NCBI GenBank assembly: GCA_030272155.1
Contig: CP126198.1
Span: forward strand, 5,616,501 to 5,680,500
Direction of reading: 5' to 3'
DNA from: Tetradesmus obliquus
Lineage: Eukaryota > Chlorophyta > Chlorophyceae > Sphaeropleales > Scenedesmaceae
Length of the DNA: 64,000 nt
Shown here: positions 19,349 to 51,412 of the stretch, in pieces
Layout of the letters: every line of letters begins with the position of its first letter
Position numbering within the stretch: the first letter of the stretch is position 1
Program-made: the position numbers and the translations under genes
The notes under the pieces: model-generated
Databases searched by the model: none
What the model saw: the letters and a program-made list of their open reading frames with translations, nothing else
What the model was told of the DNA's origin: nothing

Positions 19349-21061
19349 ATGGCTGCAGCAGACGGCCTCGGCGGCGGCCTTGGGGACGTAGGACTGGACC
19401 AGGTGCAGACAATTGCAGCAGCAGTTTTTGGCGTGCTGGGTACACTTCTTAAGGAGCGCTGGGAGGACAGTAGGCGCTACCTGGCGTTGCGGTTTACCAT
19501 GGAGCATCTGCAGCTGCTGCTGATCCTGCTGCAGCCGCATTTTGGCTGGCGGTTCAATTATGAGCACTGGTGAGTAGTTTGGGGGCTGCATAGGGGCTCT
19601 GCGTGGGGGCGGGGGCATTTAAAAATGAGCACACCATGATTTTTGATTCTGGGTACCCGTGTGGCAGCAGCAGCAGCGCGGGCAGCACTCTGCAACGCAG
19701 TTGCAGAGTGCATGAAAGACAGCAAATGCACCTGAACTTGTGCAGTATGTGGTAGTTGGCATGTATATTGCCTGTGCAGTGCAGCTTTGAGTGGCGGCTG
19801 GTGTACCAGCATCGCCATCTGTGCCTGTGTAGTATCAACACACACACAATGCGTTGCTGCGTGCTTGCAGGGGCTGGCAGGTGCCCAACTATGTGCTGGT
19901 CAAGGACCTCATCGTGCCCATGGTGAGATTGCAAAAAAGCAGCTGCTGACAGCCATCAAGCATGCGTGGCAGTGTATCATGCATACGTGGTTGGCAGCGG
20001 CTGCAGGCACACTGTCTAAACACAGCTGTGAAAAAACACAGCTGTCATCTGCCAGTGAGCATGCTGCAGCAGGTGTGCATCATACGCAGTCACTTGCTCG
20101 ACATCCAGGCGAGATGGCAGCATGCAATATGCACAAATGCCGTGCAAACAGCCGCACTGCTGCCCAGCGATTGCCTGTATATACACCAACCACCCATGAC
20201 ACAACATGAGGATGCTGGCACAAGCTCACTTTTCTGCAACCATGTGCTGTATATGTTGTTGCGGGTGATAGGTGTGCTGGGAAAAAACTGTGTTTGTGCT
20301 GCTGGTGTACATTATGCTGGGGCTGCTGGCTGGACTCAAGACGCTGAAATGGCTGTAAACATGTGCTGTACGTGTGATTTCTGCAGGGCGACGGCGTGTT
20401 TGTGCTTGTGATGTACGCCATGGTGGCGCTGGCTGGGCTGTCGCTGTGTGGGTGCGGCTGGATCTGCTACACCTTCACACGCAATGGCTTCGTGCCCAAC
20501 AAGTGGTGAGACGAGCGGCAGTCTGTTAGAGCTGTAGTGCAAAAAGTCACGGCTGCGATAGCAGTGGCGGCAGCAGCAGCAGCAGCACGTTCATGCGCAA
20601 CGGCTTCATGCCCAACAAGTGGTGAGCGGGGCGGCAGCAGCAGCAGCAGCAGCAGCAGCGGCGGCGGCAGCCGCACTATGCTAGTAGTGGGTAGTCAATG
20701 GCGAGCAGGTACGAAGGCAGCAGCAGCAGTAACAGCAGCAGCAGCAGTAGCAGCAGCAGCAGCCGCAGCCTGCCGTTCATAAGCTGACTGGAGGCAATGC
20801 AGTCTTGGCCAGAAGCAAGTTGCATCATTGCTGCCTGCTATGGTCAGAGTGAAGGCGCAGCGCAAAAACCGCAGTGTGCGCCCAGGCGCCTGGACAGGCT
20901 TCACTAGTCTGCTCAGTGCTGCAACGCATATCATGGCCGGTCAATCACATGGCAGGCTGCTGCTGCTTCGTGTGTGCTATTACGTGTGCTGCTGGTGTCA
21001 TCTGCTGCATCTGCTGCTACCTCCTTGTTTGCGCACTCAACCTCCTGTGCGCCCCTCTGGC

Positions 21062-21358: not shown

Positions 21359-21600
21359 CAGCAATGGTAGCAGCAGCAGCCGTTGCAGCTGCATGGTTTT
21401 TAGGAACAAGTCGTTCGCAGCAGGTACAGGGCTAAAAAAACCGTCACATGACCCTGCACTTTGCTTCCTGAACGTGGACTTCTACCCAGAAGGTGGGCAG
21501 CAGCGGCAGCAGTAGCAGCGGCAGCAGCAGCAGCAGCTGCCAGTGCAATCAGATAGAGGTTGAGACGTTTGGACAGCAGTTGGTGCAGAGCTGAAAGCAA

Positions 21601-21635
<35 letters not shown>

Positions 21636-22377
21636 GCAGCACAATAACACCCGTGTTTCTGTGAATATTATCAGCTGCGACAGCTCCTGTCACTATGGCT
21701 TGCATGGTAGCAGTACCCCGAGCTGCGCTTCTTGAACGTGGACTTCTACCCGGAAGGTGGGCAGCAGCATCAGCAGCGGCAGCAGCAGCGGCAGCGGCAG
21801 CGGCAGCGGCGGCGGCGGCGGCAGCAGTGGTGGCAGCGGCAACAGTGGCAGGGGGGTCGGGGCCAGCAGGCACAAGGCTGAGAGTAGCAGCAGCAGCAGC
21901 AGCAGCAGCAGCTTACATCGACGCCAATACCTTGGTGAAGATAGTCAGCTTGGCAGCTCCTGCCGTTGTGGCTTGGAAAGAAGCACGCACCTTTCTTGAC
22001 CCAACTGATGCCCTAGCTTGGCGTGCACTAGGATTGAGAGAGGATAGTTACATGTGGGTCCAGGCACCATCTTGGATGGTATGAGCCACAACAGGTTGAA
22101 CACATGGTTGAGACCAGAAAGGAGAGTGAGCACCGTGGAGCACAAGCTTTGGTGCTGACAGCACCACACTCAAACACACGATATCTCCACAACAAGCGGG
22201 CCATTCGTGCGCCGAACCCTGTTGTTCATGCTGCCATCCCTGCCGCTGCTGCTGCTGCTGCTGCCCATCTGCTTCAGAGTGCCGCCACTTCCCGCACATC
22301 GCGCACCTCACGGTGGCATGCGTCTTCAGCCTGTTTAAACTGCTGTTGTCGCCTCTTTGCGCACAATGACATATTTT

Positions 22378-22419
<42 letters not shown>

Positions 22420-22664
22420 CAGAGTGCCGCCACTTCCCCCACATCGCGCACCTCACAGTGGCCTGCGTCTTCAGCCTTGTCTTCGTTGCAGTTGCGGGCC
22501 TCTTCGCACGTTGACACACTGCTGCTGCTGCTGCTGCTGCTGCCGCCCATCTGCTGCAGAGTGCCGCCACTTCCCGCACCTCGCGCACCTCACAGTGGCA
22601 TGCGTCTTCAGCCTGATCTTCATCGTTGTTCGGGCCTCTTTGCGCACAATGACATAACTTTGCC

Positions 22665-22708
<44 letters not shown>

Positions 22709-22968
22709 AGAGTGCCGCCACTTCCCGCACATCGTGCACCTCACAGTGGCCTGCGTCTTCAGCCTTGTCTTCGTTGCAGTTGCGGGCATCTTCGCACTGG
22801 CTGACGTCACGCTGCTGCTGCTGCTGCTGCTGCTGCCCCTGCCCTTGCCTCTGCTGCTGCAGAGTGCCGCCACTTTCCGCACATCGCGCACCTCACGATA
22901 GCGTGTTTCATCAGTTTTGTGTTCATTGCGGCTGCGGGCCTCTTTGCGCACAACGACATAATTCTGCC

Positions 22969-23025
<57 letters not shown>

Positions 23026-23139
23026 TGGCTGCTGCAGAGTGCCGCCACTTCCCGCACATCGTGCACCTCACAGTGGCCTGCGTCTTCAGCCTTGTCTTCA
23101 TTGCAGCTGCGGGCCTCTTTGCGCACAATGACATAATTT

Positions 23140-23178: not shown

Positions 23179-23489
23179 CAGAGTGCCGCCACTTCCCGCA
23201 CATCGCGCACCTCACAGTGGCCTGCGTCTTCAGCTTGGTCTTCGTCGCAGTTGCGGGCCTCTTCGCACTGGCTGATGTAACACCCAACCCAGTGAGCCAG
23301 AATTGGCTGGCCACAGCACATGCCGGCGTGGAAGTCAAGACCTGGGTGTTCAAAACCCTGATCGTTGTTTGCGCAAACGCGCTGACGGGGCATTGGAAGG
23401 GCCAGGTCACGCCGATTCTGATCTTCGCCACGTGGATTTTCTATGTGCACGTGCGCTGGGTGAGTTGCTGTGGGCTGGCAGTTCGAGGC

Positions 23490-23528: not shown

Positions 23529-26500
23529 CTACTACTCTCCAATGATAATAGGATGGAATGCACGTGCCAGCTTTTGATACATCTCCTGGTGCTGCTGCTC
23601 ATGTACTCTCATTCTGTGCACCCTGCTATCATTTTGCTGACGCAGCAACCCTACTACTTCCAATGGATGAACCACATCCGAGCGGGTCTATACGCCATGA
23701 CAGCTTTCGTAGCCCTCATGCTGTCAATCAACGCATGGTGGGAGCAAGCCCTGCAGATGAACAACAGCGTGCCAGGAGAGCAAAAGGCGGCCCGCAGCAT
23801 TGCCCGTGCGCAGGTGCTGTCACAGCTGGTGCTGCCGCTGCTGCCTGCTGCGGCGGCTGTGGGTGTGGCTGTGTCGTGGCTGCGGCTGAACATCGCCACC
23901 AGGCGCGCCCTGGACAAGTTCAGGTGCGGCTGCTACAAAGAATGCATCTACAACAGAGTTCTACGACTATGGTCTGTCATTCATCAGCATGCAGCGTGCA
24001 GGGTGCTTTGCTCCGTGCAGTGGCCGTCCTCAGCATGTAGAGTGTGCCTCAGAGCTCGTGCTGTTGTTTAGCAGCCGGCAGCGGCGGCTGTGGGTGTGGC
24101 TGTGTCGTGGCTGCGGCTGAACCTCGCCACCAGGCGCGCCCTGGACCAGTTCAGGTGGGTTTATAAAGATGGGAAAACTATGTATTTTCATGCAGCATAG
24201 GGCTGTAATGCTGGATGGAGCAGGCCCTGCAGTTCAGCGCCAGCCTGTCAGCAGAGCAGCAGGCGGCTCGCAGCCTGGCCAAGTTCAGGTGGGGCTGCTG
24301 GAACTGGATCCAACAACACATCAACTGCAGCCTGCAGATAGGCTGGCTAGTGTTACTTGCTGTTGACAGCATCTTTAGCCCTTAGTAGACGACGTTGCAC
24401 AGCCTGTTGAAAATTGCTGCTCCGTGAGCGGCGTGGTCAACATGCCTTGGACGCATGCCGCAGGGCGCTGGGCGCCGTTGAGGCTGATATATTCCCGCGC
24501 TGAAACATCCACAAGTTTGCAGAGGATGCCGACCTCACAGATTTCAAGCTGCCTGTTTCCAATGTACCACTGTGTGCTGTGTTGTCAACTGATGTAATGC
24601 CGCAGGGCTCTGGGCCCGGTTGAAGCTGAGAGTGTACCTGGGCTGAAGGACGTGCACAAGTTTGTGGACCCATGGGAGGTGGAGATCATCGCACGCTGCT
24701 GCAGGTGGGGGGAATGGGATTTGAATATATTTGAATCATAAAAACTCTCTCAGTGCCGAGCTGGATCATGCCGATGCTGCTGCTGCTGTTGGCGGATTGT
24801 GCTGCTAGCGGCTGCGGGAGTTATGGAGTGTGCAGCTGTCCGGCGGTAAGGGTGATTAAATGCATGCGCCTGCTGATGCGCTGCGAGTCGCTGTTGAGGC
24901 AACCACGTAGAATCACCAGACCCATGCTGCTTGCATGCTGATGGTTGTGAGTGTCGTCGCTCACCAGAGTGATGCTGCTGGCCGCCCTGCTGCACATGAC
25001 ACCTGCTGCTGCAGGCGCTGGGCTGACTATGAGGATAAGGAGCTGGACCAGTTTTGAACAACCTGTTGCTTGTCTGCTGGTGTTTGGGGTGTTGGGTAAT
25101 GCAGCTGTTGAATTGCTGCTGCTGGCTGCCCCAATGCATCCAAAACTGCCAATATGTTTGTTGACATGCTGCTGCTGCTGCAGGCGCTGGACTGACTATG
25201 AGGATAAGGAGCTGGACCAGGGCGCAGTGAAGCTGGCAGAGACGGTCATCAAGGTGCGCGGCACTTGCTGTTTGACCAGGGTTGACCAGCGTTGACCAGG
25301 TTTGACCATATCCACCAGCCTTCAAGCATGTCTGATCATGTGAGGATAGGAGCCACAACCTAGTGCACAACAGCGGCACCAAATCCATGATCTGCTATTC
25401 CCTGCCGTGGCTGCTGCAGGCCGGCCTGGCATGCTTCCTTTACAGCGGGCTAATGTTACAGCAGTAGTAAAGACTTTGCATCCACAACCTTTTGACTCAT
25501 GTTGCTGCAGGCCGGGCTGGCTCGCTTCCCTCACAGCGGTCACATGGTGCTCATCTATGTCAACTTCCTGGGCAGCATTTCCATGCCTGTAGCACTCAAC
25601 ACACCACACTGCATCTTCAACCTTCCTGGGCAGCGTGGCCAACAGCACTCAACACACCACACTGCATCTTCAACCTTCCTGGGCAGCGTGGCCAACAGCA
25701 CTCAACACACCACACTGCATCTTCAACCTTCCTGGGCAGCGTGGCCAACAGCACTCAACACACCACACTGCATCTTCAACCTTCCTGGGCAGCGTGGCCA
25801 ACAGCACTCAACACACCACACTGCATCTTCAACCTTTGAACCCATGCTGCTGCAGGTTGGGCTGGCTCGCTTCCCCCACTGCGGGCACATGGTGCTCATC
25901 TATGTCAACTTCCTGGGCAGCGTGGCCAACCTCACAACATCACTAATCACACTGCATCCACAATACGTATTTCTCCCATGCTGCTGCAGGCCGGGCTGGC
26001 TCGCTTCCCCCACTCTGGGCACATGGTGCTGGTGTACATCAACTTCCTGGGCAGCGTGGCCAACAGCACTCAAAACACTACAATGCATCCACAACCTGTT
26101 GACTCATGCTGCTGCAGGCCGGGCTGGCGCGCTTCCCTCACAGCGGTCACATGGTGCTGGTGTATGTCAACTTCCTGGGCAGCGTGGCCAACAGCCAGCA
26201 GGCCTGCAGCAGCCAGCTGCAGGCGGCCAAGAAGCTGGAGCCAAGCTGGCTGGACAGGTGCGGCAGGGCCCTGGCAGCGCCATTAGTAACAGTTTGATGT
26301 TAGATCAGTTGGGTGTTGGGATGTCAAACAGCTGCAGGCAGCCAAAAAGCTGGAGCCCTCCTGGCTGGAGAGGTGCGGGGTGGACGGGGCAGCATAACAC
26401 TGCTGATTGTTACATATCAATGCCAATTTCAGTTACTCTTGCAGCAGCCAGCTGCAAGCGGCCAAAGCTGGAGCCAAGCTGGCTGGACAGGTGCGGGGCG

Positions 26501-27662: not shown

Positions 27663-28940
27663 TGGCGTGTAGCGTCAATGTGTGTTGCTGCCTGTGGTGG
27701 TGCTCGTGCCGACAAGACATACCAGACAGTGCTGGAGCGCTACCCGACGAACGTGAAGGTGCGGCGCTGGTTTGACTGAAGGGAATGGAAAAAGGGGAAC
27801 TATAAGGTCGGTGTAGGGATGAGCGCTACCAGACTAATGACAAGGCGCTTTGCTGGAAAAGCTACTTACACAGCTACACAGCACCCCTCAGTACCACAAG
27901 AAACGTGATCACCGATGTTATGTTGATGGCTGTGAAATCCCACCCATGGTTGGCGTCCAATTGCTTTGTGGTGTGCTGCTCTCCCTGTACACTCCCACTG
28001 CTGCTGCAGGTGCTGCGTGCGTATGCGCGCTTCCTGGAGGATGTGAAGAACGACCCATGGTCGGCGTCCAAGTACTACACGTGAGCCCAACGTGGGAACG
28101 GCAGCAGCACAGCAACATAATATGGCCAATTTATCCTCCCTCGACACGCGTAGCCTGGTATCTATCAGTGATGGTGAAGTGCATCAGCAGGCTGATGTTG
28201 CACTTCGACCAAGCTTGACAAATGTTTGACTAATATGTGACCAAGCTTTGACTTGGTTTTTGTCTGAGCAGGGAAGCTGACAAGCTAGAGGAGCAGGAGG
28301 GTTGTGAGGGTGCAGAGGCGCTGAGCCTGATGGAGACCACTCATGCAATGCCTTGACCATGTTTGACCAACGTTTGACCAACTTTGACCATGTTTGACCA
28401 CGTGCAGGGAGGCCGACAAGCTGGAGGAGCAGGAGGGCACTGAGGGCACTGAGGCGCTGAGCCTGATGGAGACCGCCCATGCACATAGTTTGACCACATT
28501 TGACCAAAATGTGACCGAATTGGACCATGTTTTACCGTGCAGGGAAGCCGACAAGCTTGAGGTGCAGGAGGGCGCTGAGGGCGCTGAGGCGCTGAGCCTG
28601 ATGGAGACCACTCATGCACACAGTTTGACCAAAGTTTGACCAACTTTGACCATGTTTGACCACTTGCAGGGAGGCCGACAAGCTGGAGGAGCAGGAGGGC
28701 GCTGAGGGCGCAGAGGCACTGAGCCTGATGGAGACCACAGCAGGGGCTGATGCAGCAGCAGGCGGCATCAAGCAAGTTGATGAGAAGACAAACGCGGTGT
28801 GCGTGATCAACGCGACAGGCACGATACAGATGGCTAATAAGGTGCGGCTGGCTGCGCAGCGCCGTCCAGCAGTGGCTTGTCGGCTGCTGCTGCTGCTGAC
28901 GCCTTTGGTGCTGCTCCTGCTGCTGCTGCTGCTGCTGCTG

Positions 28941-28986: not shown

Positions 28987-29320
28987 AGGTGCTGCTCAAG
29001 ATGTTTGGCTATCGCAAGGGCGAGCTAGAGGGCAAGAATGTGGCACTGCTGTTGCTGCTGCTACTTCGACTTCGCTGCTGCTGCTGCTGCTGTTGTTGTA
29101 GGTGCTGCTCAAGATGTTTGGCTATCGCAAGGGTGAGCTGGAGGGCCAAAACGTGGCGCTGCTGATGATGCTGCTGCAGCTGCTGCTACTACTCTGACAT
29201 CGCTGGTGCTGCTGCTGCTGCTGTAGGTGCTGTTGAAGATGTTTGGGTACTGCAAGGGCAGGCTGGAGGGCAAGAACGTGGCGCTGCTGCTGCTGCTGCT
29301 GCTGATGCTGCTACTTTGAC

Positions 29321-29355
<35 letters not shown>

Positions 29356-37830: not shown

Positions 37831-37927
37831 AGGCCCGCTGCTGGGCATTTCCTCCAACTCGCTGCTGCGCACCCCCGTCAGCCGCTGGCTCAACACGCAC
37901 AACCAACCAACATGCCACTGCTGCTGC

Positions 37928-40462: not shown

Positions 40463-40512
<50 letters not shown>

Positions 40513-40605
40513 AGATGAGCTGCTGGGCGCCAAGTTGGTGCGGGCGCGTGGCGGCGTGACGTTTGGCACCGAAGATGAGGAGCAGGAGGACATGGCCACT
40601 GAAAC

Positions 40606-40651
<46 letters not shown>

Positions 40652-40767
40652 AGATGAGATGTTGGGGGCCAAGTCCGTGAGGGCACGCGGCGGGGTGACG
40701 TTTGGCGCTGCCGCTGCTGCTGCTGAAACATGCTGGTGCTTCTGCTGCTGCTGCTACTGAAACATGC

Positions 40768-40802: not shown

Positions 40803-43787
40803 AGATGAGCTGGTTGGCGCCAAATCTGCGAGGGCGCGCGGCGGCGTGACGTTTGGCGCTGCGGATGCTGATGCTGAAGATGAGCAGGAGGATGCAGCAG
40901 CAGGCGGCGAGGAGGGCAGGGGCAGCGACGATGAGGAGGGGCCTGCGCGGAGCAAGAAAAAGGTCAGCACTGCTTGAATCACCAAATGCCGCTGTGGTGT
41001 CATGCAGCAGTGCTTTTGACAGTCAGTTGCATGCAAGCAGGCTATTGATACATCCTAGAAGATCACAGAAATACACGTTTTTGTGACGTGCTGCACATAT
41101 CATAGGCTGCAGCAGCAGCCTCAGCAGCGTGCAAGCACTTGCAGTGTGATCTACAGAGGTGGATTGTGTGGTTGCTGAGTTGATGTGTGTCATTTGCTGG
41201 TGGATGTATGTCTCGTTTGTACAGCTGCTGCTGCATGGCAAGCTGTGCAGAGTCTGCACATGGATGGTGCGAGCAGCCAGGTAGCGTGCAGTTGGTGCCT
41301 GAGGCTGGCTGCTGGCAGTGCTGCCTGAGCTGTGAGGGGTTTGACAGATGCGGCGTTTGCTGCTGCTGCTGCTGCTGCCGCTGCAGAATGACCGCGTCGC
41401 GGACTGGGTGCGCCAGGCGTCAGGACTGGTGAGTGCGGCAAGCTGCCGCTGCTGCTGCGCCGCTTGCTGCTTGTGAAGTCAGTGATTATAATTGCTTCTT
41501 TGTTACCCAGCAGTAGAAGCACATCATGTTTAGGCAGCATGCAGCACGGCCATCACTGCCGTGGAGGCTGAGGAGGCTGAGGAGCTACTTTCTGGCAACA
41601 ACCACGTGCTCCCTTTCTCTTACAATGCCTGCTTCTTGCCCTGCAGACTGCCGCTACCACTGCTGTCGAGGCAGAGGAGTCGCTGGCAGGCAACGGGTTT
41701 GCTGGCGGCCTGCCGCCGCCGCCAGATGAGCAGCCGCCAGACACGCTGGCTGATGGATACTTGGCACCACCTGAGACGAATCTGGCGGGCGGTGATGCAG
41801 GCTCGGTCATGTCTGGCGGTGAGCAATGGCATAATGTTATGTGTTCCCAAGTGCTTTCGAAAGCATTTGCTGCGCTGCTAGTGTGTCACGAGACAGGTTT
41901 GGTGATGTCTGGCGGTGACCAGCAGCTGAGTGGCACACGCATGTTTTGCGTGCACTGCCAGTGCACAGTGTGTGATCATTGAACAACGATTGCTGTTGAG
42001 GATGGTGCGCTGGCTGACGGGTGCCTGGTACCGCCTGAGGCCGATCTAGCGGGGATGCAGGCTCGGTCATGTCCGGCAGTGAGCAGCTGATGTGCTTGAG
42101 ATTTGCCAGTGCTGTCGTATTATAAGGATGATCAGCGCTGCAAGTACGCCAGGGTGTAGCCCCGGTGGTGTCTGGCGGTCATGGATGAAGCTGCTGCTGC
42201 TGCTATTGCTGCTGCCAGGTGACGACGGCGCCTTGTCAGCGCCCGATGGAAGCGAGGCGGGCAAGTACAAGAGCGACTTCAAGCCAGCAAAAGAAACCAC
42301 CACCGCTGTTGCTGCTGCTGCTGCCGCCACAGGTGACGGCGCCTCATCAGCGCCCGATGGCAGCGAAGCAGGGGCATACGAGAGTGACTTCAAGCCAGCA
42401 AATGAACCACGGCTGCTGCTGCTTGTGCTGCTGCTGCTGCTGCTGCTTGTGCTGCTGCTGCTGCTGCTGTTGCTGCTGCCAGGTGACGACGGCGCCTCGT
42501 CAGCGCCCGATGGAAGCGAGGCGGGCGAGTACAAGAGCGACTTCAAGTTAGCAACTGAACCACTGCTGCTGCTGCTGCTGCCGCCACAGGTGACGGCGCC
42601 TCGTCGGCGCCGGATGGCAGCGAGGCAGGGGCCTACGAGAGCGACATCAAGCGCGGCAAGCGGCTGCGGCGGCTGGCACGCATGCTCAACGGCAAGCAGG
42701 CGCAGAAGGTGCGGCACATGATAATGATATGTCATCACAAGATACCTGTAGGCTGCCAGTGGCTTCCACAAGCACGCCTCACAGTCACACCATCCTTGTT
42801 GTTGAGAATTACGCGCAATATCTGTCCGAAATGCATGTGTGAAAACACGCATGCCTGCTCAATCAACGCCAGCTGCTACACCTGATCCAGCCATTTTATG
42901 CCACCGCAGGCCGCCGCGCGCTTCTACAAGCACGCCTGCCTGCTCACTCTGGGCCTCTTTGTGGCGCACACGGCGTGCTTCGCGGCCAGCGTCAGCCTGA
43001 TCAACGCGCAGAACCAGTACATCCAGGAGGTGGACGATGCGGGGGCAGCCGTCATCACTCTGCACCGCATGGCCATCGACTGCAGGTGGGCTGGCGCATG
43101 TGGTTGTTTTGTGGGATGAAATCGAGTGTGTCAGCCTGCAGATGAGCTCTGGGGAAGCTGGGTGAAGTGCTAGGCTGCAGGCAGCACCAATGCCACGCTG
43201 GATTGCATGGCAGCAGCGGGGTGTTGTGGTATTAGGAGGGTGGCATGGTTGCAGTGCAGCGCAGAACCAGTACATCCAGGAGGTGGACGATGCAGGGGCA
43301 GCCGTCATCACGCTGCACCGCATGGCCATCGACTGCAGGTGTGTGTGTGGGGGGGGGTAAGCAATCACATGTGAAAGCATGCAAGTGTGGGGTTTGCGGG
43401 GAGGGAGCGTGCATCGTCGTCTTCACGCTGCACCGCATGGCCATCGACTGCAGGTGGGTATGTGTGTGGGAAACAACACGGATGGCGGGGGTGGCGCAGG
43501 TGATGTAGCATGGCCTCATCCTGCACTTGGGACGTTGCTTGTGGACTTGTCATGTGCACGATCCGTGCTTCGATAACACTTGACTGCTCGTGTGTGCTGT
43601 GACCCAGTGGCAGGTTGGCAGTGAACGGGCGGGCAACAGGCCGGCCCTACTGCAGGTCCCCTAACTACCCTCTGCCTAACTTGCTGCTGCCGCTGCTGCT
43701 GCTGCTGCTGTTGCCAGGGTGCTGGACGCGCTGCACAAGAGCGTTGATCAGTTGGGCATCTTCACGCAGGCTGACACATCAACCTGG

Positions 43788-43828
<41 letters not shown>

Positions 43829-44563
43829 GCTGCCAGGGTGCTGGACGCGCTGCACAAGGGCATCGAGCAGCCAGCATCTTCACACAAGCTGACACATCAA
43901 CCTGGCTGCCGCTGCTGCTGCTGCTGCTGCCGCTGCTGCTGCTGCCAGGGTGCTGGACGCGCTGCACAAGGGCATTGAGCAGCCGGGCATCTTCACGCAG
44001 GCTGACCTGGCTGGCTTCAGTGCCTTGTTTGAGGAGGCGATTGATCTCTTCCACACAGACCACGAGCGCACGTATTTGGGCCGCACAGGCATGCGGCGCT
44101 TCGTCAACCGCCAGAAGTGAGTGGCATGAGGCTGCATCTCAGGAGAGGCGTTGTTGTTACATAGGCTGTTGCGCAAGCGGCGTGGTGTAGTGCTGCAGCT
44201 GGGCCCTTCTGCTGCGCACCCACCTGGGGCGCACAGGCATGAGGCGCTTCTTTAACAACATGTGTGGCGGCTGCTGCTGCTGCTGGCGCAGGTACAAGCT
44301 GCACGACTACTGGGAGAGCAACATGTGTGCCGACTGCTGCTGCTGTCGCTGCCGCTGCTGCTGCTGCCGCAGGTACAAGCTGCGCGACTACTGGGAGAGC
44401 AACATGTGTGCCGACTGCTGCTGCTGCTGCTGCTGCCGCAGGTACAAGCTGCGTGACCACTGGGAGAGCAACATGTGTGCCGACTGCTGCTGCTGTCGCT
44501 GCTGCTGCTGCTGCTGCCGCAGGTACAAGCTGCGCGACTACTGGGAGAGCAACATGTGTGCCG

Positions 44564-44602
<39 letters not shown>

Positions 44603-47600
44603 GCAGGTACAAGCTGCGCGACTACTGGGAGAGCAACATGTGTGCCGACTGCTGCTGCTGCTGCTGCTGTTGCCGCAGGTACAAGCTGCGCGACTACTGG
44701 GAGAGCAACATGTGGAATGCCACCAACTACATCGACACGGTGCCGCCTGTTGCTGAGACTGAGCCCATGGGCCTGTGGGAGCTGGGCAACTGGGTGGTGG
44801 CGGGTGAGGCGGCACGCAGCTGTGTCGCGCCCTGTAAATATTGTTGCGATGAAAGGCCGCTCAGCTGTGCATTACTACTATTCATTGCGTGAAAGATACA
44901 GCCAGTTGTGTGGCTGAGCTGATTGGGCTGCAGACAATGCACTACAGTTTCAGAGGTGCACGAAAACCTGCTGCTGCTGCTTCTGCTGCTGCTGCAGCCG
45001 CGCGAGAGGTGCTCAGCAACCACGAGCGCATGACGGCCGGCGGCGTGCCGCTGAGCGAGAACCGCTTCTGGCGCTTTGTGATGGACAACGGGCCCTGGGC
45101 GCTGTACAACGGCTACAAGGTCACACTCTACGGCCTGGTGCGCGGCCGGTGGCCATGATGTTATGTTGTTACATGACATGTTAATTTTTCCACTAGGAAG
45201 ATTGGCAGTTGATCAATCATGCAGGTGGGCCCTGGGCGCTGTGCCACGGCTCTGATGTCATGCTCTGCGGCTGGTGCGCAGCCTGTGGCCATGTTACTAT
45301 GTTGTTACATGACGTGCCATTTGGCACTTTGAAAGTCGGCGTGTGATCAGTTGTAAAGGTGTTCCCTGGGCGCTGTGCAACGGCTACAAGCTCACACTTC
45401 ACGGCCTGGTGCACCACTATACGACTTACGAACTCTTTTTACTTTTATGTGGCCAGTGGTGCTATCGATTGTGTTAGTGGGCCTTGGGCAGTGTACAACG
45501 GCCACAAGCTCACGCTCTACGGCCTGGTGCGCAAGTCATGATGTTGTTACATGACATGTTATTATTGTTGACGAAAGCAAATTGACCCATTGAAACAAAA
45601 CATATTTGAAATAACCCGGCACAGTTTGCTCCTTGGCATTGCTGGCCATCAACTCAAGCAATTGACTATACAGCTGTTGCAACACGTTTCCCCTTCCTGC
45701 TGCTGCTGCTGCTGCTGCAGGTGGAGCGTGCTGCTGCCAAGATGGGCGAGGTCAGCAGCGCCATGGTGCTGCTGCTGGTGCTGGAGGGCTGCGTGCTGTT
45801 CATCAGCGCTGCCGCGTACATCACCTGGCTCATATCGCGCATGGTGTCGCAGCGCGCCAACCTGTTCAGCGTGTTCCTGGTCATACCGACTGGCTTCCTG
45901 AGGGCGCTGGCCAGCAAGCAGGTGAGCGGCACTCCTTGCAAATACTCATAACCAGCAAGCAGGTGTGTGGCACTGCATGCGTATATTCATCACCAGCAAG
46001 CAGGCATGCAGGAAGTGTACACACTTCACCTTGTGGCATTGTCCGCCAGCGCCTGAGCACAGCACCGCAGCACAACGTGTTATCAGAAACATTGTTCATT
46101 GCTGCCGGCGTGACATCTTGCGGTGTTCACCTGCAATTGTGACGCTGACTCAGCGTGATTATGCGCTGGCTCAGCGCAATTCTGATGTTGCTGACTCAGC
46201 TTATGTTTGTCGTTACTGACTCACCATGATCCTGGCACTGATTTGATGCTGCAGGTGGTGCTGGATGAGGATGCTGACAGCGACGAGGGCAGCGATGCAG
46301 GCGACCCGGGCGTGCCACAGCAGCGGCAGCAGGAGGGCGAGGGGCAGGACGCACAGAAGGTGGGGCAGTGGGGGGCAGCGCAGCGCTGCGCAAGATAGAA
46401 AGTCTTTTTCCTGCAAGGTAGAACGCGTGTGGTTGGGATCTGTCCAGACTGTATGTGTATGCTTAACAGCGTGGGCGCCTGCCTGTGCCGAGTGGAAAAG
46501 CGTGTCTACCTTGTGGCTGACGTGTGTCTATGTGTCTGCCCATCTGCCCACATCACACTGCAGGTGAACCTGAGCATATTTGGCAAGAAGGCAACAAGCA
46601 GCCAAGCGAGGGCGGCCACCACAACTACCGTTACTCACACACCTTATGAACCTTCCTTCTGGCTGCTGCTGCTGCGCAGGTCAACCTGAGCATATTCGGC
46701 AAGAAAACCAAGCAGCCCAGCGAGGGCGGCTACAACGACTTCTTCAGCAAGCAGCAGCAGCAGCGCGGCTCGCTGCTGGCGCGAGTTGCGTCCTCAATGA
46801 ACCCGCTGCGCTGGTTCGGCAGCGGCAAGGGCAGCAGGGTCGACACAGGTGGGCGGCGGGGTGTCTCAGAAGCCTCTGCCTTCAGTTCAAATAGACTGCA
46901 TGTAATGAGTTCAGCACATGTGCTGACAGTTGCAAAGTCTGCAGGTTTGCTAGTGCTGCGTTAACGAGATACAATGACGCCGCACACGGCATGGGACACT
47001 CACCAAGCCGCACATACATGCTTAACGTGCATTTCTGACCAATAGCCATCTCTGCATGCTGCTGCTGCTGCGCCTGCAGGCAAGAAGCAGTTGGTGCGCA
47101 ACAGCAGGGACGCCTACATTGTGGCAGCACCCTACGTGCTGTGGGCCTTCCTCATCATCTTTGCCTACCTGCTGACCATTGTGGAACTCAAGTCGGTGAG
47201 GAGGCTGTGGCTGCTTGTGCACAGGCCTGGTTGTACATGGTCTTTTGAGCTGCCTCATCCTGCTGCTCAGTGCTTCAAAGCGCTATAAACTACAGCCTTT
47301 GATTGCACATAACCATATTAGTGCTGTGCGGGGAGCAGTCAGCAGTTTCAGCCTCAGCAAACCTGTTTTGACACCTGGTTGTGTGGCTGGCTGTCTGACC
47401 ATCGTGGAACTGAAGTCGGTGAGGCGGCTGCTGCAGCCGGCTGTGCACAGGATTGATAATTTCAGCTGCCTCATCTTGCGGCTCAGCTTTCCAGGCACAA
47501 AAAAATCCTTTGCCTACCTGCTGACCATTGTGGAGTTGAAATTGGTGAGGAGGAGGCTGCTGGTGATGCTGATGCTGCTGGTGATGCTGATGCTGATGCT

Positions 47601-49262
47601 GATGCTGCTACTGCTGCTTGCTGCTGCTGCTGCTGCTGCTGCTGTTCCTTTTACTCCCTGCAGGTGCAGGGCCCCTTCCGCATGCTCAACAGCATCAACT
47701 TCCTGGTGTTCCGCGTGACCCGCGGCGTGCTGTTTGCGCTGGAGATCTGTATGGCGCCTGACGCAGCCAGCATGGTGAGATCCAGCAGTTGGAATCTGAT
47801 CTTGAGTGCCTGTTATCTGAGATCTAAGATCTGAGATCTGGCCGTGAGTGCCTCAGATGTGAGATCTTACATTGAGCGTGTCTGAGATCTGCATGGCGCC
47901 TGACGCAGCCAGCATGGTGAGTGCCGGCAGTTGGGATCTGATATTGAGTGCTGCTGATCTCAGATCTGAGGTCTGAGATCTGGGCGTGAGTGCCTCGCAT
48001 CTGAGGTCCTAGATCGTTAGTGTCTGAGATCTGCATGGCACTGGACGCGACTAGCACCGGGAGTGCCTGATATCTGATGCGTGATGGGGCGTGCTTGAGA
48101 ACTTAGCTCTGTCTGTGCGTGCCGAAGATCTTCATCAAAAACGGCAGCATGTGCCGCAGCTGCATCTCCTAGCCACAGCAACTGACATCCGCACCGCTTG
48201 ACAAGACTGCATGTGCCGCATTGCTTTTCTGCAGGCGCTGCGCAAGCAGCGGACAGTGCAGCGGCTGCACGACATGCAGCGCGACTACACCTGCATGCGA
48301 CAGCTGCTGGCCTTTACACAGTCTGTTCAGGCTTGTCATGACAAGACAGCATTTGCCGCTTTCTTTCCCGCAGGCGCTGCGCAAGGAGCAGACGGTGCAG
48401 CAGCTGCACGACATGCAGCGCGACTACACTTCCTTCCCGTACGATGACGTCTCCTTGTGACAGCAACTGACCTCTGCCCCGCTGCAAAAGCCTGCTTGTG
48501 CTGCATCTTTTGTTTGCAGGCGCTGTGCAGGACACTAACAGTCCAGCTGCTGCCCGGCATGCGCCGCAGTGGCAGCTCCTTGACCTCCGCACCTGCATGT
48601 TTCCTCGCAGGCGCTGCGCAAGCAGCAGACGGTGCAGCGGCTGCACGACATGCAGCGCGACTACACCGCTTTCCTGTACGGCTTCGACGCACTGGGGCCC
48701 AATGAGGAGCCGGACGACCTGACCACCTACCAGGCCGCGGTATTCCAGAATGCTGACCTGGCGCACGTGTTCTTCAGGTGAGCCGGCGCACCAGTGTGTT
48801 GAGAGATTTGCGGTGCACATGGGCTGTTCCAGAATGCTGACCTGGCGCACGTGTTCTTCAGGTGAGCCGGCGCACCAGTGTGTTGAGAGATTTGCGGTGC
48901 ACATGGGCTGTTCCAGAATGCTGACCTGGCGCACGTGTTCTTCAGGTGAGCCGGCGCATGCCACCAGACTGTTGAGTATATGTTGAGTTCAACATGTCAC
49001 CGTGTTTTGGCTGATTTCCCTGCGACGCTTTCTGCCACTCAATACTGCTGCCGCGACTCGACATCTGCTTGCCACTGCGTGTGCGTGCCTGCTCTAGGAC
49101 CATGGAGTCAGTCCGCCGGACTGCCTGCGCAAGGACCAGGCCAGCTATCAATGTCTCCAAAATGCTGCTGCTGCTGCTGCCATCGTGCATGCGCAGGACC
49201 ACGGACTGCCTGCGCAAGGACAAGGCCAGCTATAAATGTCTCCAAAATGCTGCGGCTGCTGC

Positions 49263-49866: not shown

Positions 49867-51139
49867 TTCATGCAGGAGACGCAGCTGCTGCTGGCTGACG
49901 ACCCTCGCGACATCAACGTGAGCAATGCGCGGCTGCGCTACATCTGGCAGCTGGGCCGCAACGACCTCTTCGACGGCATGCAGCTGGCTGACAAGGTGCG
50001 TGTGCGGCCGCTTTGCACTGTATGTTATATGTGTAACAACATGGTGAACGTTTGATGGCATGCAGCTGGCAGACAAGGTGAGCGGCGGCTGGTGAAAGAT
50101 GCCTACTGTGCGTCTGCAACCCATGTCAACAGATGTAACAATATAACGTGGTGATGACAAAAAACAAAAATGTGTGCTTGTGTGACGGCATGCAGCTGGC
50201 AGACAAGGTAAACACAGCATCTGCAGCCACCCAGCAGCCACAGCTTACAATATCATTGTAAGGTATACATTATCATAGGAAAAGAGTAAATGCACTACGT
50301 GTTTGACGACAAGCAGCTGGCAGACAAGGTCAGTGGGCGGCCTCTGCTGCTGTGCGGCTGCAGCTACAGCCGCATACCGACTGGAGCACATCGCGTCCGA
50401 TTAACTCCGCATCACGTATGCTGCTGCTGACACTGCTGCTGATGCCGCCGCCGCTGCTGCTGCTGCTGCTGCCGCAGACTTTCCGCGCCGGCGTGGAGGA
50501 GATATTCGCGCAGGTGCGCATTGTGCACGTGGCCGTATCTGCGCTGAGCCTGCTTGCGGCGCTGAGGCTGTGCTTGCAAGCAATCGTCTTTTTTTACTGT
50601 ACATGCCTGATGAAGAGTGAAGCGCCTGAAGCGCTTTGCTCAGCTTTGACGTTGGCAGTACGATAGATACCTGCACACCGACGCCAGGAAGCTGTTGTCA
50701 GCAACAGCTTTGTGTGCATGTACATAGGCTGTGAAACACAGCTGCAGCCATTGCGGCACGAAAACTCTTCACATCTCGTCGATTTCTGCAAACAAATGCA
50801 ATCGCAGGTGCGCGTGGTGCACGAGGCGATATTCGCGCTGAGCCTGATCGGCGCGATCGCGCTGTGGCTGGGTCTGGTGCGGCCCACGCTGCGGCGGGCT
50901 GCGCGCGAGACGGCGCAGATCGCGGAGATGCTGAGCCAGCTGCCGCCTGAGATGGACGTTGAAGGCATCATTGCACAAGTGGTGCTGGGAGGTGAGTGAG
51001 GCGCTGGGAAGGGTGGTGATGGGATTCGCTGGGTTTGGATTTGGGCGAACACAATACAAGTACACCTGGAAAACCCACAGGGCACAGCAGCTCAGCCTGG
51101 CAGCCTCCCCATTACTGGCTGACTCCCTTCCGTTTTGAA

Positions 51140-51184: not shown

Positions 51185-51412
51185 ACCGCTGCTGCAGAGG
51201 ACGAGGACGACGCTGCAGCTGCTGGCAAGAAGGGCCCCCGCCAGGGCGGCATGGCACAGGCAGGCCCGGGGGGAGGTGGCGGCTACAGCAGCAACCACAA
51301 GCGCAGCGTGGATGGCATGATGCCAAATGGGGCTGCCGGGGGTGGGGGTGGTGGCAACAGGCGCAGCCTGGACCTGCCAGCGCTCAGCAGCAGCATGCCG
51401 GGCTGGAGCTGA
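19349..51412 (+). CDS. TmcB/TmcC-like multi-PAS membrane protein, 44 exons, 2152 residues
   Basis: ATG 19349, TGA 51410-51412; all borders GT-AG and every phase joins (6459 nt). Exons: 19349-19569, 19871-19922, 20387-20505, 21125-21273, 23182-23459, 23646-23923, 24606-24704, 25184-25253, 26118-26257, 26972-27088, 27370-27550, 28010-28080, 28670-28841, 29477-29629, 30269-30416, 31176-31290, 31783-31910, 33384-33601, 33888-34028, 35050-35285, 35717-35795, 36505-36724, 37969-38174, 39006-39192, 40805-40962, 41387-41428, 41647-41818, 42590-42708, 42910-43085, 43608-43655, 43949-44116, 44679-44803, 44998-45137, 45721-45921, 46255-46359, 46680-46848, 47080-47195, 47664-47774, 48611-48777, 49330-49428, 49866-49995, 50478-50513, 50808-50991, 51198-51412. 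Residues about 92-360 hold roughly seven membrane segments. A TPR-like helical region follows at about 420-600 (KVLLHSNVSFSAVVKAFRHI, LRAYARFLEDV). PAS-like modules lie near 632-735 (MFGYRKGELEGKNVSLLMP), 750-850, 855-950 and 960-1055. An acidic linker (1290-1420) precedes further membrane segments (1427-1450, 1653-1706, 1811-1868, 2022-2045) and MLSQLPPEMDVEGIIAQVV. This order matches the tiny-macrocysts protein family; a sensory or signalling role at a membrane is inferred. Exon 30 is the least certain. Confidence 0.85.
20269..20630 (+). repeat. Partial copies flanking giant-gene exon 3
   Basis: A diverged copy at about 20269-20345 (TGTTTGTGCTGCTGGTGTAC) precedes the intact exon 20387-20505. 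A donor-half copy at 20588-20630 (GCCCAACAAGTGGTGAGC) follows it and runs into (CAG)n. Confidence 0.8.
21065..21124 (+). repeat. (CTG)20 abutting the acceptor of exon 4
   Basis: Twenty uninterrupted CTG units end in CTGCAG, the acceptor of exon 4 (21125). The tract takes the place of a normal polypyrimidine stretch. Confidence 0.95.
21463..21757 (+). repeat. Two donor-half copies of exon 4
   Basis: Copies at about 21463-21494 and 21720-21757 repeat GAACGTGGACTTCTACCC and GAAGGTGGGCAGCAG from the exon 4 end (21255-21285). All three donors lead into CAG repeats. Confidence 0.9.
22278..23181 (+). repeat. Array of six acceptor-half copies of exon 5
   Basis: Decoy acceptors precede AGTGCCGCCACTT at 22278, 22423, 22560, 22711, 22863 and 23038; the real exon starts at 23182. 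Each unit holds about 90-110 bp of exon 5 start (CACAGTGGCCTGCGTCTTC) and then a (CTG)n tract. Spacing is 137-175 bp and irregular. Only the last copy continues into GACCTGGGTGTTC and a donor at 23459. Confidence 0.95.
24073..24289 (+). repeat. Two donor-half copies of exon 6, one much older
   Basis: 24073-24153 is nearly identical to the exon 6 end (GTGTCGTGGCTGCGGCTGAA, donor after AAGTTCAG or CAGTTCAG). 24212-24289 is far more diverged (WEQALQ and QQAARSLAKFR against WEQALQ and QKAARSIARAQ), so copies of different age coexist. Confidence 0.8.
24458..24530 (+). repeat. Acceptor-half copy of exon 7
   Basis: ATGCCGCAGGGCGCTGGGC and CACAAGTTTG repeat the start of exon 7 (24597-24668) in diverged form. 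Confidence 0.75.
25015..25053 (+). repeat. Acceptor-half copy of exon 8
   Basis: GCGCTGGGCTGACTATGAGG and AAGGAGCTGGACCAG match the first 39 bases of exon 8 (25184 onward) with one substitution. The preceding CTGCTGCTGCAG is also copied. Confidence 0.9.
25511..26060 (+). repeat. Acceptor-half copies of exon 9 with an internal 53-bp minisatellite
   Basis: Copies start at about 25511, 25857 and 25991 (GGGCTGGCTCGCTTCCC, CACATGGTGCT, TTCCTGGGCAGC) before the real exon at 26118. Between the first two lies a 53-bp minisatellite (25593-25840, units at 25593, 25646, 25699, 25752, 25805) made of exon-derived TTCCTGGGCAGCGTGGCC plus intron sequence. Confidence 0.95.
26330..26491 (+). repeat. Two donor-half copies of exon 9
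   Basis: About 26330-26376 and 26443-26491 repeat CTGCAGGCGGCCAAGAAGC and GAGCCAAGCTGGCTGGACAG with the GTGCGG donor. The second copy lacks three bases (AAAGCTGG for AAGAAGCTGG). Confidence 0.9.
26731..26840. other. Palindrome and (TCAC)n tract in intron 9
   Basis: CCAGGGGC at 26742-26749 and GCCCCTGG at 26753-26760 form a perfect 8-bp stem with a 3-base loop. They are bordered by GGGTGTGG and CCACACACACCC, which extend the pairing imperfectly. A (TCAC)n microsatellite follows at about 26816-26840. It could be the trace of an inserted element, but no element ends are recognisable. Confidence 0.5.
27571..27659 (+). repeat. Near-pure (CTG)29 in intron 11
   Basis: About 29 CTG units with one TTG interruption lie between exon 11 and its donor-half copy (27703-27763: GACAAGACATACCAGAC, GTGCTGGAGCGCTACCC). 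Unlike most tracts, it is not directly followed by an acceptor. Confidence 0.9.
28271..28669 (+). repeat. Three acceptor-half copies of exon 13 with TTTGACCA tracts
   Basis: Copies near 28271, 28409 and 28544 (GAAGCCGACAAGCT or GAGGCCGACAAGCT, then CTGAGCCTGATGGAGACC) precede the real exon at 28670. The spacers are built of repeated TTTGACCA and TTTGACC motifs rather than CTG. Confidence 0.95.
28881..28988 (+). repeat. (CTG)n tract in intron 13
   Basis: About 33 CTG-type units with GAC, TTGGTG and CTC interruptions end in CTGTAG, the first decoy acceptor of the exon 14 array. Confidence 0.9.
28989..30015 (+). repeat. PAS exon 14 with four acceptor-half and three donor-half copies
   Basis: Decoy acceptors start copies at 28989, 29102, 29227 and 29358 (GTGCTGCTCAAGATGTTTGG type). 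The intact exon is 29477-29629. Donor-half copies follow at about 29700-29764, 29828-29889 and 29952-30013 (GGCTACCTGCGCAAC, CTGGACAAGACGCAGGAG type). Each upstream copy soon meets a stop, so using it would truncate the protein. Confidence 0.95.
30160..30856 (+). repeat. Partial copies flanking exon 15
   Basis: The acceptor-half copy at 30160-30206 (GCAGATGGCGGCGCTC, TACGTGTTCC) is interrupted by an inserted TAGTAGTAT. Donor-half copies at 30551-30631 and 30775-30856 repeat GCCATGTTCATGGGCGTGAT and AAGCCTGGATCATGCC or AGGCCTGGTTAATGCC with a GTGAG donor. A short scrap recurs at about 30917. Confidence 0.9.
31062..31583 (+). repeat. Partial copies flanking exon 16
   Basis: The acceptor-half copy at 31062-31115 (AACGCAGGCGGCAGTCATGC, GTGGACGCGCACTTC) is upstream. 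Donor-half copies at 31390-31440 and 31535-31583 (GGCGGCCACTC, GCTGGCAGTGGAC) are downstream. The following intron piece with TTTGACCACGCTTTGAC is copied as well. Confidence 0.9.
31921..32046 (+). repeat. Telomere-like stretch and donor-half copy of exon 17
   Basis: 31921-31966 contains GTAGGGTTTAAGG and GGGTTTAGGGTT. It lies between exon 17 and its donor-half copy at 31976-32046 (GTGGCACTGACACACCAGTA, GACATCACCATCGAGATGGG). Confidence 0.85.
32265..33383 (+). repeat. Higher-order array of acceptor-half copies of exon 18
   Basis: Longer copies begin near 32272, 32515, 32662, 32896 and 33146 (CACTGATGCGCAGCGCCTG, GAGCACCTGATGGTCAC, AAGGGACGCATCTGTTA). They alternate with short copies near 32411, 32803, 33040 and 33290 (GGCACGGACACGCAACAG type). 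The alternation of long and short copies shows amplification of a composite unit. The intact exon starts at 33384. Confidence 0.95.
33626..34451 (+). repeat. Partial copies flanking exon 19
   Basis: Acceptor-half copies near 33626-33690 and 33751-33830 (GGGCAGCTGCCGTGCGGGTG) precede exon 33888-34028. Donor-half copies near 34096, 34205 and 34404 (GTGAGGGAGCAGGGCGAGGA, ATCTTCATCGTCAAGGT) follow, each leading into CTG repeats. Confidence 0.95.
34684..35511 (+). repeat. Partial copies flanking exon 20
   Basis: Acceptor-half copies near 34684-34745, 34791-34880 and 34942-34992 (CACCTTCC, CCAGCCGCCGGCTCTCCCTC) precede exon 35050-35285. A donor-half copy at 35421-35511 (GGGGCGCAACGTGTCGGAGT, GTGCACAAGTGAGTG) follows. 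Exon 21 has a similar acceptor-half copy at 35622-35655. Confidence 0.9.
35963..36504 (+). repeat. Five acceptor-half copies of exon 22
   Basis: Copies near 35963, 36088, 36171, 36284 and 36395 repeat GTGATCCAGGCCAACATGCT and GGCCAGCCGCACCAAGGCCG with variable divergence. The intact exon starts at 36505. Confidence 0.95.
36838..37164 (+). repeat. Donor-half copies of exon 22
   Basis: 36838-36989 (GAGCACGAGCCCGACGAGGC, GCTGAGATGCTGATGGGCGT) and 37086-37164 (GAGATGCTGATGGGCGTGG, TGCTGCGCGCTGCACCAGCC) repeat the exon 22 end with its donor. Confidence 0.95.
37453..38416 (+). repeat. Partial copies flanking exon 23
   Basis: Four acceptor-half copies start near 37453, 37576, 37700 and 37832 (GCCCGCTGCTGGGCATATCC, CTCGCTGCTGCGCAGCCCC), each after (CTG)n-CAG. 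The intact exon is 37969-38174. One donor-half copy at 38283-38416 follows (GATGCCAAAAAGAAAGGCGC, CACATCAGCGTGCAGGTGCG). Confidence 0.95.
38570..40231 (+). repeat. Partial copies flanking exon 24
   Basis: Acceptor-half copies near 38570, 38771 and 38878 (GGTGGCGGC or GGTGGCAGC, CGCCTGGTGGTCAAGCTG) precede exon 39006-39192. Four donor-half copies near 39326, 39600, 39858 and 40108 (GGCCAAGGGCCACCC, CTGGGGCTGGCAGTGGCTGA, AAGGAGCAGGAAG) follow. Confidence 0.95.
40390..40804 (+). repeat. Three acceptor-half copies of exon 25
   Basis: Copies near 40390, 40513 and 40653 (GATGAGCTGCTTGGCGCCAA, GGCGTGACGTTTGGC) alternate with (CTG)n tracts. The intact exon starts at 40805. Confidence 0.95.
41535..42082 (+). 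repeat. Degenerate copies flanking exon 27
   Basis: An upstream copy at about 41535-41600 (GCCATCACTGCCGTGGAGGC, TGGCAACAACC) and downstream copies at about 41895-41915 and 42002-42082 (GATGCAGGCTCGGTCATGTC) bracket exon 41647-41818. Confidence 0.75.
42220..42589 (+). repeat. Three acceptor-half copies of exon 28
   Basis: Copies near 42220, 42333 and 42483 (CAGCGCCCGATGG, GCGAGGCGGGC, GAGCGACTTCAAG type) alternate with CTG-rich spacers. The intact exon starts at 42590. Confidence 0.95.
43256..43453 (+). repeat. Two donor-half copies of exon 29
   Basis: 43256-43340 and 43425-43453 repeat AGTACATCCAGGAGGTGGAC and CTGCACCGCATGGCCATCGA with the TGCAGGT donor. Confidence 0.95.
43717..43948 (+). 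repeat. Two acceptor-half copies of exon 31
   Basis: Copies near 43717 and 43837 (CAGGGTGCTGGACGCGCTGC, CATCTTCACGCAGGCTG or CATCTTCACACAAGCTG) alternate with (CTG)n. The intact exon starts at 43949. Confidence 0.95.
44292..44678 (+). repeat. Five in-frame acceptor-half copies of exon 32
   Basis: Copies start at 44292, 44373, 44442, 44523 and 44607; the real exon starts at 44679. Spacings are 81, 69, 81, 84 and 72, all multiples of three. Each unit reads YKLRDYWESNMCAD followed by a run of cysteines, and the frame stays open into the real exon. Every acceptor would therefore give an in-frame product. Confidence 0.95.
45222..45534 (+). repeat. Three donor-half copies of exon 33
   Basis: Copies near 45222, 45360 and 45479 (CCTGGGCGCTGTGCAACGGC type, then CTACGGCCTGGTGCGC type) follow exon 44998-45137 and carry the same GTGCGC donor or variants. 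Confidence 0.9.
46564..46611 (+). repeat. Acceptor-half copy of exon 36
   Basis: AACCTGAGCATATTTGGCAA and CGAGGGCGGC repeat the exon 36 start (46680 onward), preceded by CTGCAGGTG. Confidence 0.9.
47388..47547 (+). repeat. Two donor-half copies of exon 37
   Basis: 47388-47420 (CTGACCATCGTGGAACTGAA) and 47505-47547 (TTGCCTACCTGCTGACCATT) repeat the exon 37 end at 47160-47200, each with a GTGAGG donor. Confidence 0.9.
47815..48060 (+). repeat. GAGATCT-rich degenerate repeat with exon 38 donor copies
   Basis: The stretch is built from overlapping TGAGATCT and GATCTGAG motifs. It includes a copy of the exon 38 end at 47885-47922 (GAGATCTGCATGGCGCCTGA). The repeat core probably derives from GGAGATCTGTATGGCGCC in exon 38. 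Confidence 0.8.
48235..48571 (+). repeat. Three acceptor-half copies of exon 39
   Basis: Copies near 48235, 48375 and 48520 repeat GCAGGCGCTGCGCAAG and GGCTGCACGACATGCAGCGC or variants. The intact exon starts at 48611. Confidence 0.95.
48743..48958 (+). repeat. 84-bp tandem repeat across the exon 39 donor, 2.6 identical units
   Basis: Units start at 48743, 48827 and 48911 with TTCCAGAATGCTGACCTGGC. Each contains GTGTTCTTCAGGTGAGCC, the exon 39 donor. I see no difference between units, so this duplication must be very recent or homogenised. Confidence 0.95.
49100..49528 (+). repeat. Partial copies flanking exon 40
   Basis: Acceptor-half copies near 49100 and 49193 (GACTGCCTGCGCAAGGAC, CAGGCCAGCTAT or AAGGCCAGCTAT) are followed by ATCAATGTCTCCAAAATGC type intron and CTG tracts. 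The intact exon is 49330-49428. A donor-half copy lies at about 49500-49528 (ACGGCCTGGACGCCATGGCC). Confidence 0.9.
49601..50330 (+). repeat. Partial copies flanking exon 41
   Basis: Acceptor-half copies near 49601, 49707 and 49783 (TTCATGCAGGAGACGCAGCT or variants) alternate with (CTG)n tracts, including about 18 units at 49636-49689. The intact exon is 49866-49995. Short donor-half copies near 50055, 50187 and 50308 carry GCATGCAGCTGGCAGACAAG or a variant. Confidence 0.95.
50514..50807 (+). other. Intron 42, apparently created by tandem duplication
   Basis: The first 65 bases of the intron align without gaps to the first 65 bases of exon 43 (GTGCGCATTGTGCACG against GTGCGCGTGGTGCACG, then GCGCTGAGCCTG in both). 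They translate as VRIVHVAVSALSLL against VRVVHEAIFALSLI. Exons 42 and 43 were therefore probably one exon, split when a CAG|GT-containing stretch was duplicated. Confidence 0.75.

Follow-up and report, generated by a model that had tools for sequence, protein, structure and literature searches.

What process could fill the introns of a single gene with partial copies of its own exons, in such a way that copies upstream of an exon carry its 5' edge and copies downstream carry its 3' edge? The question is raised by a PAS/TmcB-like gene of Tetradesmus obliquus, which occupies positions 18787-51412 (plus strand) of the 64,000-nucleotide stretch that we analyzed (GenBank assembly GCA_030272155.1, contig CP126198.1, positions 5,616,501 to 5,680,500; hereafter the window) and contains 44 coding exons for 2158 amino acids. 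To build the gene model, we used spliced alignment with two proteins annotated in T. obliquus, which were also the best two protein matches: P0001 (OEZ85_014441, 2164 amino acids) and P0002 (OEZ86_014704, 1129 amino acids). A 33-bp exon of the P0001 model was left out as doubtful, which gave the 44 coding exons. The resulting coding sequence (6474 bp, 2158 codons) has no internal stop, ends with the stop codon at 51410-51412, and encodes a protein identical to P0001 at 2099 of 2156 aligned residues (97.4%) and to P0002 at all 1096. The initial annotation of this DNA had also counted 44 exons, but it placed the start of the gene at 19349, while exon 1 lies at 18787-18851. Precomputed Pfam domains on P0001 and P0002 include PAS families and PF25474, and the source name of one homologue is TmcB/TmcC TPR repeats protein. 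According to a paper on a related alga, UTEX 3031 is marked as a diploid strain, in which one gene has two similar sequences that seem to be alleles, and its phased telomere-to-telomere assembly is cited in two reference lists (Biondi et al. 2024). We infer that the OEZ85 and OEZ86 proteins represent the two haplotypes of UTEX 3031. Two other properties of the gene concern repeats: exons 19 (33509-33542) and 24 (37974-38007) resemble each other over 34 bp (86% identity), and about 11% of the region 18700-51600 consists of CTG/CAG-type triplet repeat, frequently as runs of CTG that end with the acceptor CAG.

Partial exon copies were searched by blastn, using the 44 exons against the triplet-masked gene. 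This produced 121 non-self matches, none of them on the minus strand, and reversed sequence gave no match at the same cut-off. Two matches were removed (overlap with coding exons; the exon 19/24 resemblance), and 116 of the remaining 119 intronic matches sit in introns adjoining the parent exon. The 3 far from their parent exon were removed, again for the exon 19/24 resemblance, and 3 pairs of exon-25 pieces that the mask had split were merged, leaving 113 distinct copies distributed over 34 of the 44 exons. Among them, 63 lie upstream of the parent exon and contain its 5' edge (acceptor-halves), 39 lie downstream and contain its 3' edge (donor-halves), 10 are internal (6 upstream and 4 downstream), and one is odd; none of the 113 holds both exon edges. 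The polarity of the junction-bearing copies is thus 63:0 upstream and 39:0 downstream (Fisher exact test on 63/0/0/39, p = 4e-29, with copies of the same array not being independent). Both the estimate of more than 100 copies around the 44 exons and the direction of their halves, as given by the initial annotation, are borne out by these numbers. An independent self-comparison, suggested there as a check, returned 37 local direct-repeat families, 36 of which touch an exon: 32 span a junction and 4 touch the exon only. The remaining family is apparently exon-free and spans the donor-half copies of exon 41. A single inverted pair was found, 13 kb apart and 67.5% alike.

The copies, all on the plus strand, are arranged along the gene as follows. 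Exon 5 is followed by 2 donor-halves (21453-21756), and exon 6 (23182-23459) is preceded by 6 acceptor-halves (22278-23122; blastn and alignment). Downstream of exon 7 lie a donor-half (24091-24154) and an internal diverged copy (24212-24280). The acceptor-halves of exon 10 (25420-26067) include a 53-bp unit present in 4.6 identical tandem copies (25591-25836), which joins an inner piece of that exon (positions 50-78) to other sequence and is a young array within an older one; 2 donor-halves of the same exon follow (26329-26490). The odd fragment (27928-27965) comes from exon 13, lacks a junction and ends 4 bp before the 3' edge; it is the exception that the initial annotation had reported under exon 12. 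Next come 3 acceptor-halves of exon 14 (28272-28611), 4 acceptor-halves (28989-29410) and 3 donor-halves (29701-30013) of exon 15, 2 donor-halves of exon 16 (30553-30852), 1 acceptor-half (31062-31106) and 2 donor-halves (31388-31582) of exon 17, and 1 donor-half of exon 18 (31980-32045). Exon 19 has 7 acceptor-halves (32272-33326), exon 20 has 3 donor-halves (34100-34451), and exon 21 has 2 acceptor-halves (34689-34938) and 1 donor-half (35415-35507). Around exon 23 there are 5 acceptor-halves (35962-36450) and 2 donor-halves (36840-37162), and around exon 24 there are 4 (37453-37894) and 1 (38262-38415), respectively. The P0002 model, which matches this haplotype, was misled at 2 of these places, since it includes the exon 19 half at 32895-32993 as an exon and its protein ends inside the exon 23 half at 36171-36227. 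Exon 25 is preceded by 3 acceptor-halves (38574-38936) and followed by 4 units from its 3' part, 3 of which reach the donor (39325-40167). Acceptor-halves are then found for exons 26 (3 copies, 40390-40706), 29 (3 copies, 42224-42547), 31 (2 copies, 43718-43893), 32 (5 copies, 44292-44642) and 39 (2 copies, 48235-48443), and donor-halves for exons 30 (2 copies, 43259-43453), 33 (3 copies, 45227-45526) and 41 (3 copies, 50051-50328). The donor-half array of exon 39 (48743-48958) has an 84-bp unit with 100% matches, the first unit being partly inside the intact exon. These identical units and the diverged copy at 24212 had been singled out as extremes of age, and both are present.

The best explanation for this arrangement is repeated short tandem duplication in which one break fell within an exon and the second within an adjoining intron, a reading to which we give a probability of roughly three in four. 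Such duplications would recur in the genome, and each would leave one copy of the exon whole and the other half: the upstream product would contain the acceptor and the 5' part, and the downstream product the 3' part and the donor. The fixed polarity then needs no extra rule because it results from the geometry of a tandem duplication with exactly one junction in the unit, and the pattern also extends beyond the window, to the windows sampled elsewhere (see below), though the gene is denser than all of these. The tandem unit measures 72 to 294 bp (median 136 bp; 44 exon edges measured). In the 15 introns holding copies of both neighboring exons, those of the upstream exon precede those of the downstream exon in all 15. 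Copy number correlates with intron length (rho 0.86, n = 43 introns), and the median intron is 231 bp long among the 11 copy-free introns and 635 bp in the rest; the introns of this gene would have grown largely through such copies. A flank resembling that of the intact exon (z of at least 4) was found in 21 of the 39 testable acceptor-halves (of 61) and in 15 of the 31 testable donor-halves (of 37), while 11 acceptor-halves and 11 donor-halves had flanks with z below 2 despite exon parts 72-100% identical to the exon. The duplication scheme proposed in the initial annotation is therefore partly supported: it fits best with the common strand, the proximity to the parent exon, the fixed polarity, the absence of whole-exon copies and the strong, mostly unpaired splice sites, but clear flank homology is limited to roughly half of the testable copies, and the copies do not look simply neutral (pN/pS 0.25-0.30).

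If 44 units were placed uniformly, 2.3 to 4.9 whole-exon duplications would be predicted, and none was seen, as expected if splice sites pair across exons. The same calculation with the present introns also yields a figure against the duplication reading: about 26 of 44 duplications should be intron-only, yet 36 of the 37 repeat families touch an exon. Perhaps, and this we propose tentatively, the excess of exon-touching families arises largely from intron-only copies becoming undetectable sooner; of the four young full-unit duplications in the 200 kb sampled elsewhere (see below), two are noncoding. Tandem arrays are difficult to assemble, so an assembly error could in principle mimic such a locus. 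However, most copies differ from the exon by at least one base and many by several percent, which collapse or expansion errors do not produce, and the rule also applies to windows sampled from ten contigs; we find this explanation scarcely credible.

The splice sites on the half-exons are well preserved. The AG is kept in 58 of 63 acceptor-halves and the GT in 37 of 39 donor-halves, and the median scores are 10.9 (halves) versus 11.7 (intact) for acceptors and 10.3 versus 11.5 for donors. The copy site was weaker than the intact one in only 28 of 62 acceptors and 19 of 39 donors. The lower quartile of real sites was reached by 45 of 62 acceptor copies, compared with 5.5% of intronic AG, and by 24 of 39 donor copies, compared with 2.3% of intronic GT. 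These sites are mostly unpaired: with controls that were not triplet-matched, a good donor near the end of the acceptor-half was found in 0 of 63 cases (control 10.6%, p 0.0016), and a good acceptor near the start of the donor-half in 4 of 39 (control 24%, p 0.04). Use of an upstream acceptor copy is predicted to introduce a stop in 44 of 62 cases, a frameshift in 7 and an open insertion in 11; for downstream donor copies, the corresponding numbers are 35 of 39, 2 and 2. The simplest reading of strong half-exon sites that mostly lack a partner is that splice sites may be paired across exons in this alga. The halves would be tolerated because the spliceosome pairs sites across the exon and a half goes unseen, whereas an additional complete exon would enter the transcript and hence be removed by selection. 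The gene offers a natural test of exon versus intron definition: the acceptor copies, as a class of nearly full strength, are closer to the upstream donor than is the real acceptor, and before exon 19 there are as many as seven of them. For green algae with short introns, intron definition is argued in a Volvox paper (PMC4378016) with respect to Volvox and Chlamydomonas, and exon pairing in T. obliquus would contradict that view. If exon pairing does apply, the half-exons are ready-made natural splicing decoys.

A different possibility is that the half-exons are functional, either in alternative transcripts or under purifying selection of another kind. Their divergence has features that would fit this: pN/pS is 0.25 between intact exon and copy (bootstrap 0.20-0.31) and 0.30 between copies (0.23-0.38), only 3 of 303 non-synonymous changes make a stop, and the exon parts of the copies contain far fewer gaps than their flanks. 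Retention of the splice sites and the alignment of the 32895-32993 copy as an exon by P0002 point the same way. However, none of the 63 acceptor-halves has a good donor near its end, use of the copy sites would mostly introduce stops, and of 35 indel events counted in the copies, 29 are frameshifting; translated copies were rejected as the main account on such grounds. Changes confined to a single copy also behave differently from those on the intact exon, with a pN/pS of 0.43 (137 non-synonymous, 102 synonymous) against 0.12 (9 and 24), and run from G/C to A/T in 130 cases versus 57 in the opposite direction, which indicates decay. Function of the half-exons is accordingly improbable in our judgment. 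Neutral decay alone was also rejected as a complete account because pN/pS is too low: for simple neutral snapshots, 0.5 or more would be expected.

Local gene conversion or template switching after duplication could likewise keep exon parts alike while the spacers drift. In the alignable families, fourfold sites differ by 0.23-0.32, codon positions 1 and 2 by 0.07-0.09 and spacers by 0.36-0.42. Wholesale conversion was rejected on these values, since the fourfold sites of the exon parts diverge nearly as much as the spacers. Individual copies look different: over 57 bp, the copy at 36171-36227 matches intact exon 23 completely, next to an upstream flank with a z of 1.8, and the donor-halves of exons 20 and 30 differ at 0 of 19 and 3 of 21 fourfold sites, with spacer differences of 0.47 and 0.50, respectively. 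Gene conversion is plausible at these copies. Where the two haplotypes differ in residue, the copies match their own haplotype 46 times, the other 37 times and a third state 4 times. At 6 residues at which two outgroups back only the other haplotype, 12 of 13 copy readings (hand count) keep the other state, which implies that recent conversion from exon to copy is rare; at 8 residues at which the two outgroups back only the own state, 23 of 32 readings (hand count) keep it. As an explanation for the copies in general, conversion is thus unlikely. Under tandem duplication, each copy would be a snapshot of the exon allele at its birth that has been decaying since. From these sequence comparisons, we conclude that most copies probably predate these residue changes, contain coding divergence that had accumulated before they arose, and have since decayed. 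The coding-like pattern would mostly come from divergence before birth, given a synonymous divergence between haplotypes estimated at about 0.10.

The arrangement is not restricted to the giant gene. In the rest of the window, where the initial annotation had claimed the same rule for several genes, all 12 clear cases comply. For the rest of the genome, we sampled 20 windows of 10 kb (200 kb) at round coordinates on ten contigs, and predicted coding segments by a codon-usage scan that was trained on the 44 exons and recovers 40 of them. The sampled windows contained 89 repeat pairs, 72 of which touch predicted coding sequence (8 within one segment, 16 unclear and 48 clear); the polarity rule is kept in 47 of the 48 clear cases, which involve 33 exons, and broken in one. 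Twelve further loci of 3 kb (8 kinase and 4 PAS-paralogue loci) gave 6 clear cases, of which 5 keep the rule and one breaks it. A GH9 gene in one sampled locus (L043; model from homologues P0030 and P0031) has 5 half-exon copies, all of them acceptor-halves upstream; 3 more matches of one exon (60-65% identity, two downstream and one upstream, approximately internal) were set aside as probable low complexity. The exon lists of the kinase and chaperonin genes did not have the resolution needed to count polarity. Two partial matches do precede one chaperonin (TCP1) exon (G000, C16:4172823-4173294) and cover the 5' side of its match. Within the window, a 36-bp unit in 4.6 identical copies at 2772-2935 starts with GGTGAGC, resembling a donor site. 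In repeat density, the giant gene stands apart: its three 10-kb windows contain 3524, 6734 and 4739 bp of repeat, more than any of the 20 sampled windows (0 to 3079 bp).

The 72 of 89 pairs touching coding sequence exceed what 200 random shifts gave (average 48.9, maximum 65). Anchoring to exons as a property of the mutation itself was set aside as weakened, because, of the four young full-unit duplications in the 200 kb, two are coding and two noncoding, although the excess of 72 of 89 over 48.9 stays. Two young noncoding tandem arrays (L034, 9302-9802, and L039, 7854-8058; units of 180 bp and of about 50 to 100 bp) imply that short tandem duplications arise outside predicted exons as well. 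A role of the CTG/CAG tracts at intron ends as drivers of the duplications was considered too. CTG tracts flank the acceptor-half arrays of exons 6, 24 and 32, and masked triplet repeat makes up that 11% of the gene region, but triplet content and direct-repeat coverage do not correlate across the 20 sampled windows (rho -0.14, p 0.57), for which reason CTG tracts were rejected as the driver, and no long tracts occur in the spacers of the arrays at exons 14 and 23 (acceptor) and at exons 15 and 30 (donor). This explanation is decidedly improbable.

One intron may itself have been created by duplication. Intron 42 (50514-50807) opens with sequence copied from the 5' part of exon 43 (50514-50572), joined to exon 42 at AG/GT; between +7 and +40, identity of the intron start with the exon 43 start is 0.76 (median of the 43 introns, 0.24). 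Its second half, the intron end compared with the end of the previous exon, is weak (0.34, median 0.25). Judged by its sequence, intron 42 is a candidate for intron gain through tandem duplication of a segment containing AGGT. Weaker starts were seen in introns 19 (0.59) and 24 (0.47), and intron 19 (33602-33814) may start with a diverged exon 20 copy right at its donor. Among the 43 introns, none has the complete layout (starting like the next exon and ending like the previous one), and intron 42 alone clearly has the first half. That the copies in general are classical intron gains of this kind is highly improbable, because only intron 42 is clear, with the matching second half missing, and the other copies lie inside existing introns and have their own acceptor or donor. 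Duplication across exon edges might be the main engine of intron growth in this lineage, possible because pairing of sites across exons hides unpaired half-exons; we advance this wider proposal tentatively, at somewhat short of even odds. A practical warning for annotation comes from P0002, with one half-exon included and its end in another.

Introner elements supply intron sequence across the genomes of some green algae, but the T. obliquus copies derive from the adjacent exon and not from a dispersed element family. They also differ from functional tandem exon duplications, in which mutually exclusive exons are whole and have both splice sites, since 0 of 113 copies hold both edges and 0 of 63 acceptor-halves have a good donor nearby. 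The internal gene duplications of Gao and Lynch (2009), as PMC4974935 describes them, likewise occur inside genes, but there whole introns with flanking exon sequence were multiplied, whereas here only partial exons were (whole exon, 0 of 113). Intron gain by AGGT tandem duplication (Rogers 1989; Hellsten et al. 2011, as described in PMC4974935) has a partial likeness in intron 42, whose start copies the next exon at an AG/GT join; nearly all other T. obliquus copies, in contrast, lie in existing introns and show no sign of intron creation. A similar single event is known from the potato RdRp gene, where, according to Ma, Lan and Niu (2016, PMC4974935), one tandem duplication that spanned an intron-exon boundary gave rise to a new intron using a cryptic donor; the T. 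obliquus gene has 102 edge-bearing copies of both polarities, acceptor-halves without a good donor, and counterparts in many genes. Single exon-edge duplications are thus already known, and a gene or genome saturated with them was not found in the open-licence literature searched. PMC4974935 notes that the sequence from which a new intron arose can seldom be identified, and the half-exon copies of T. obliquus represent a visible and repeated source of intron DNA.
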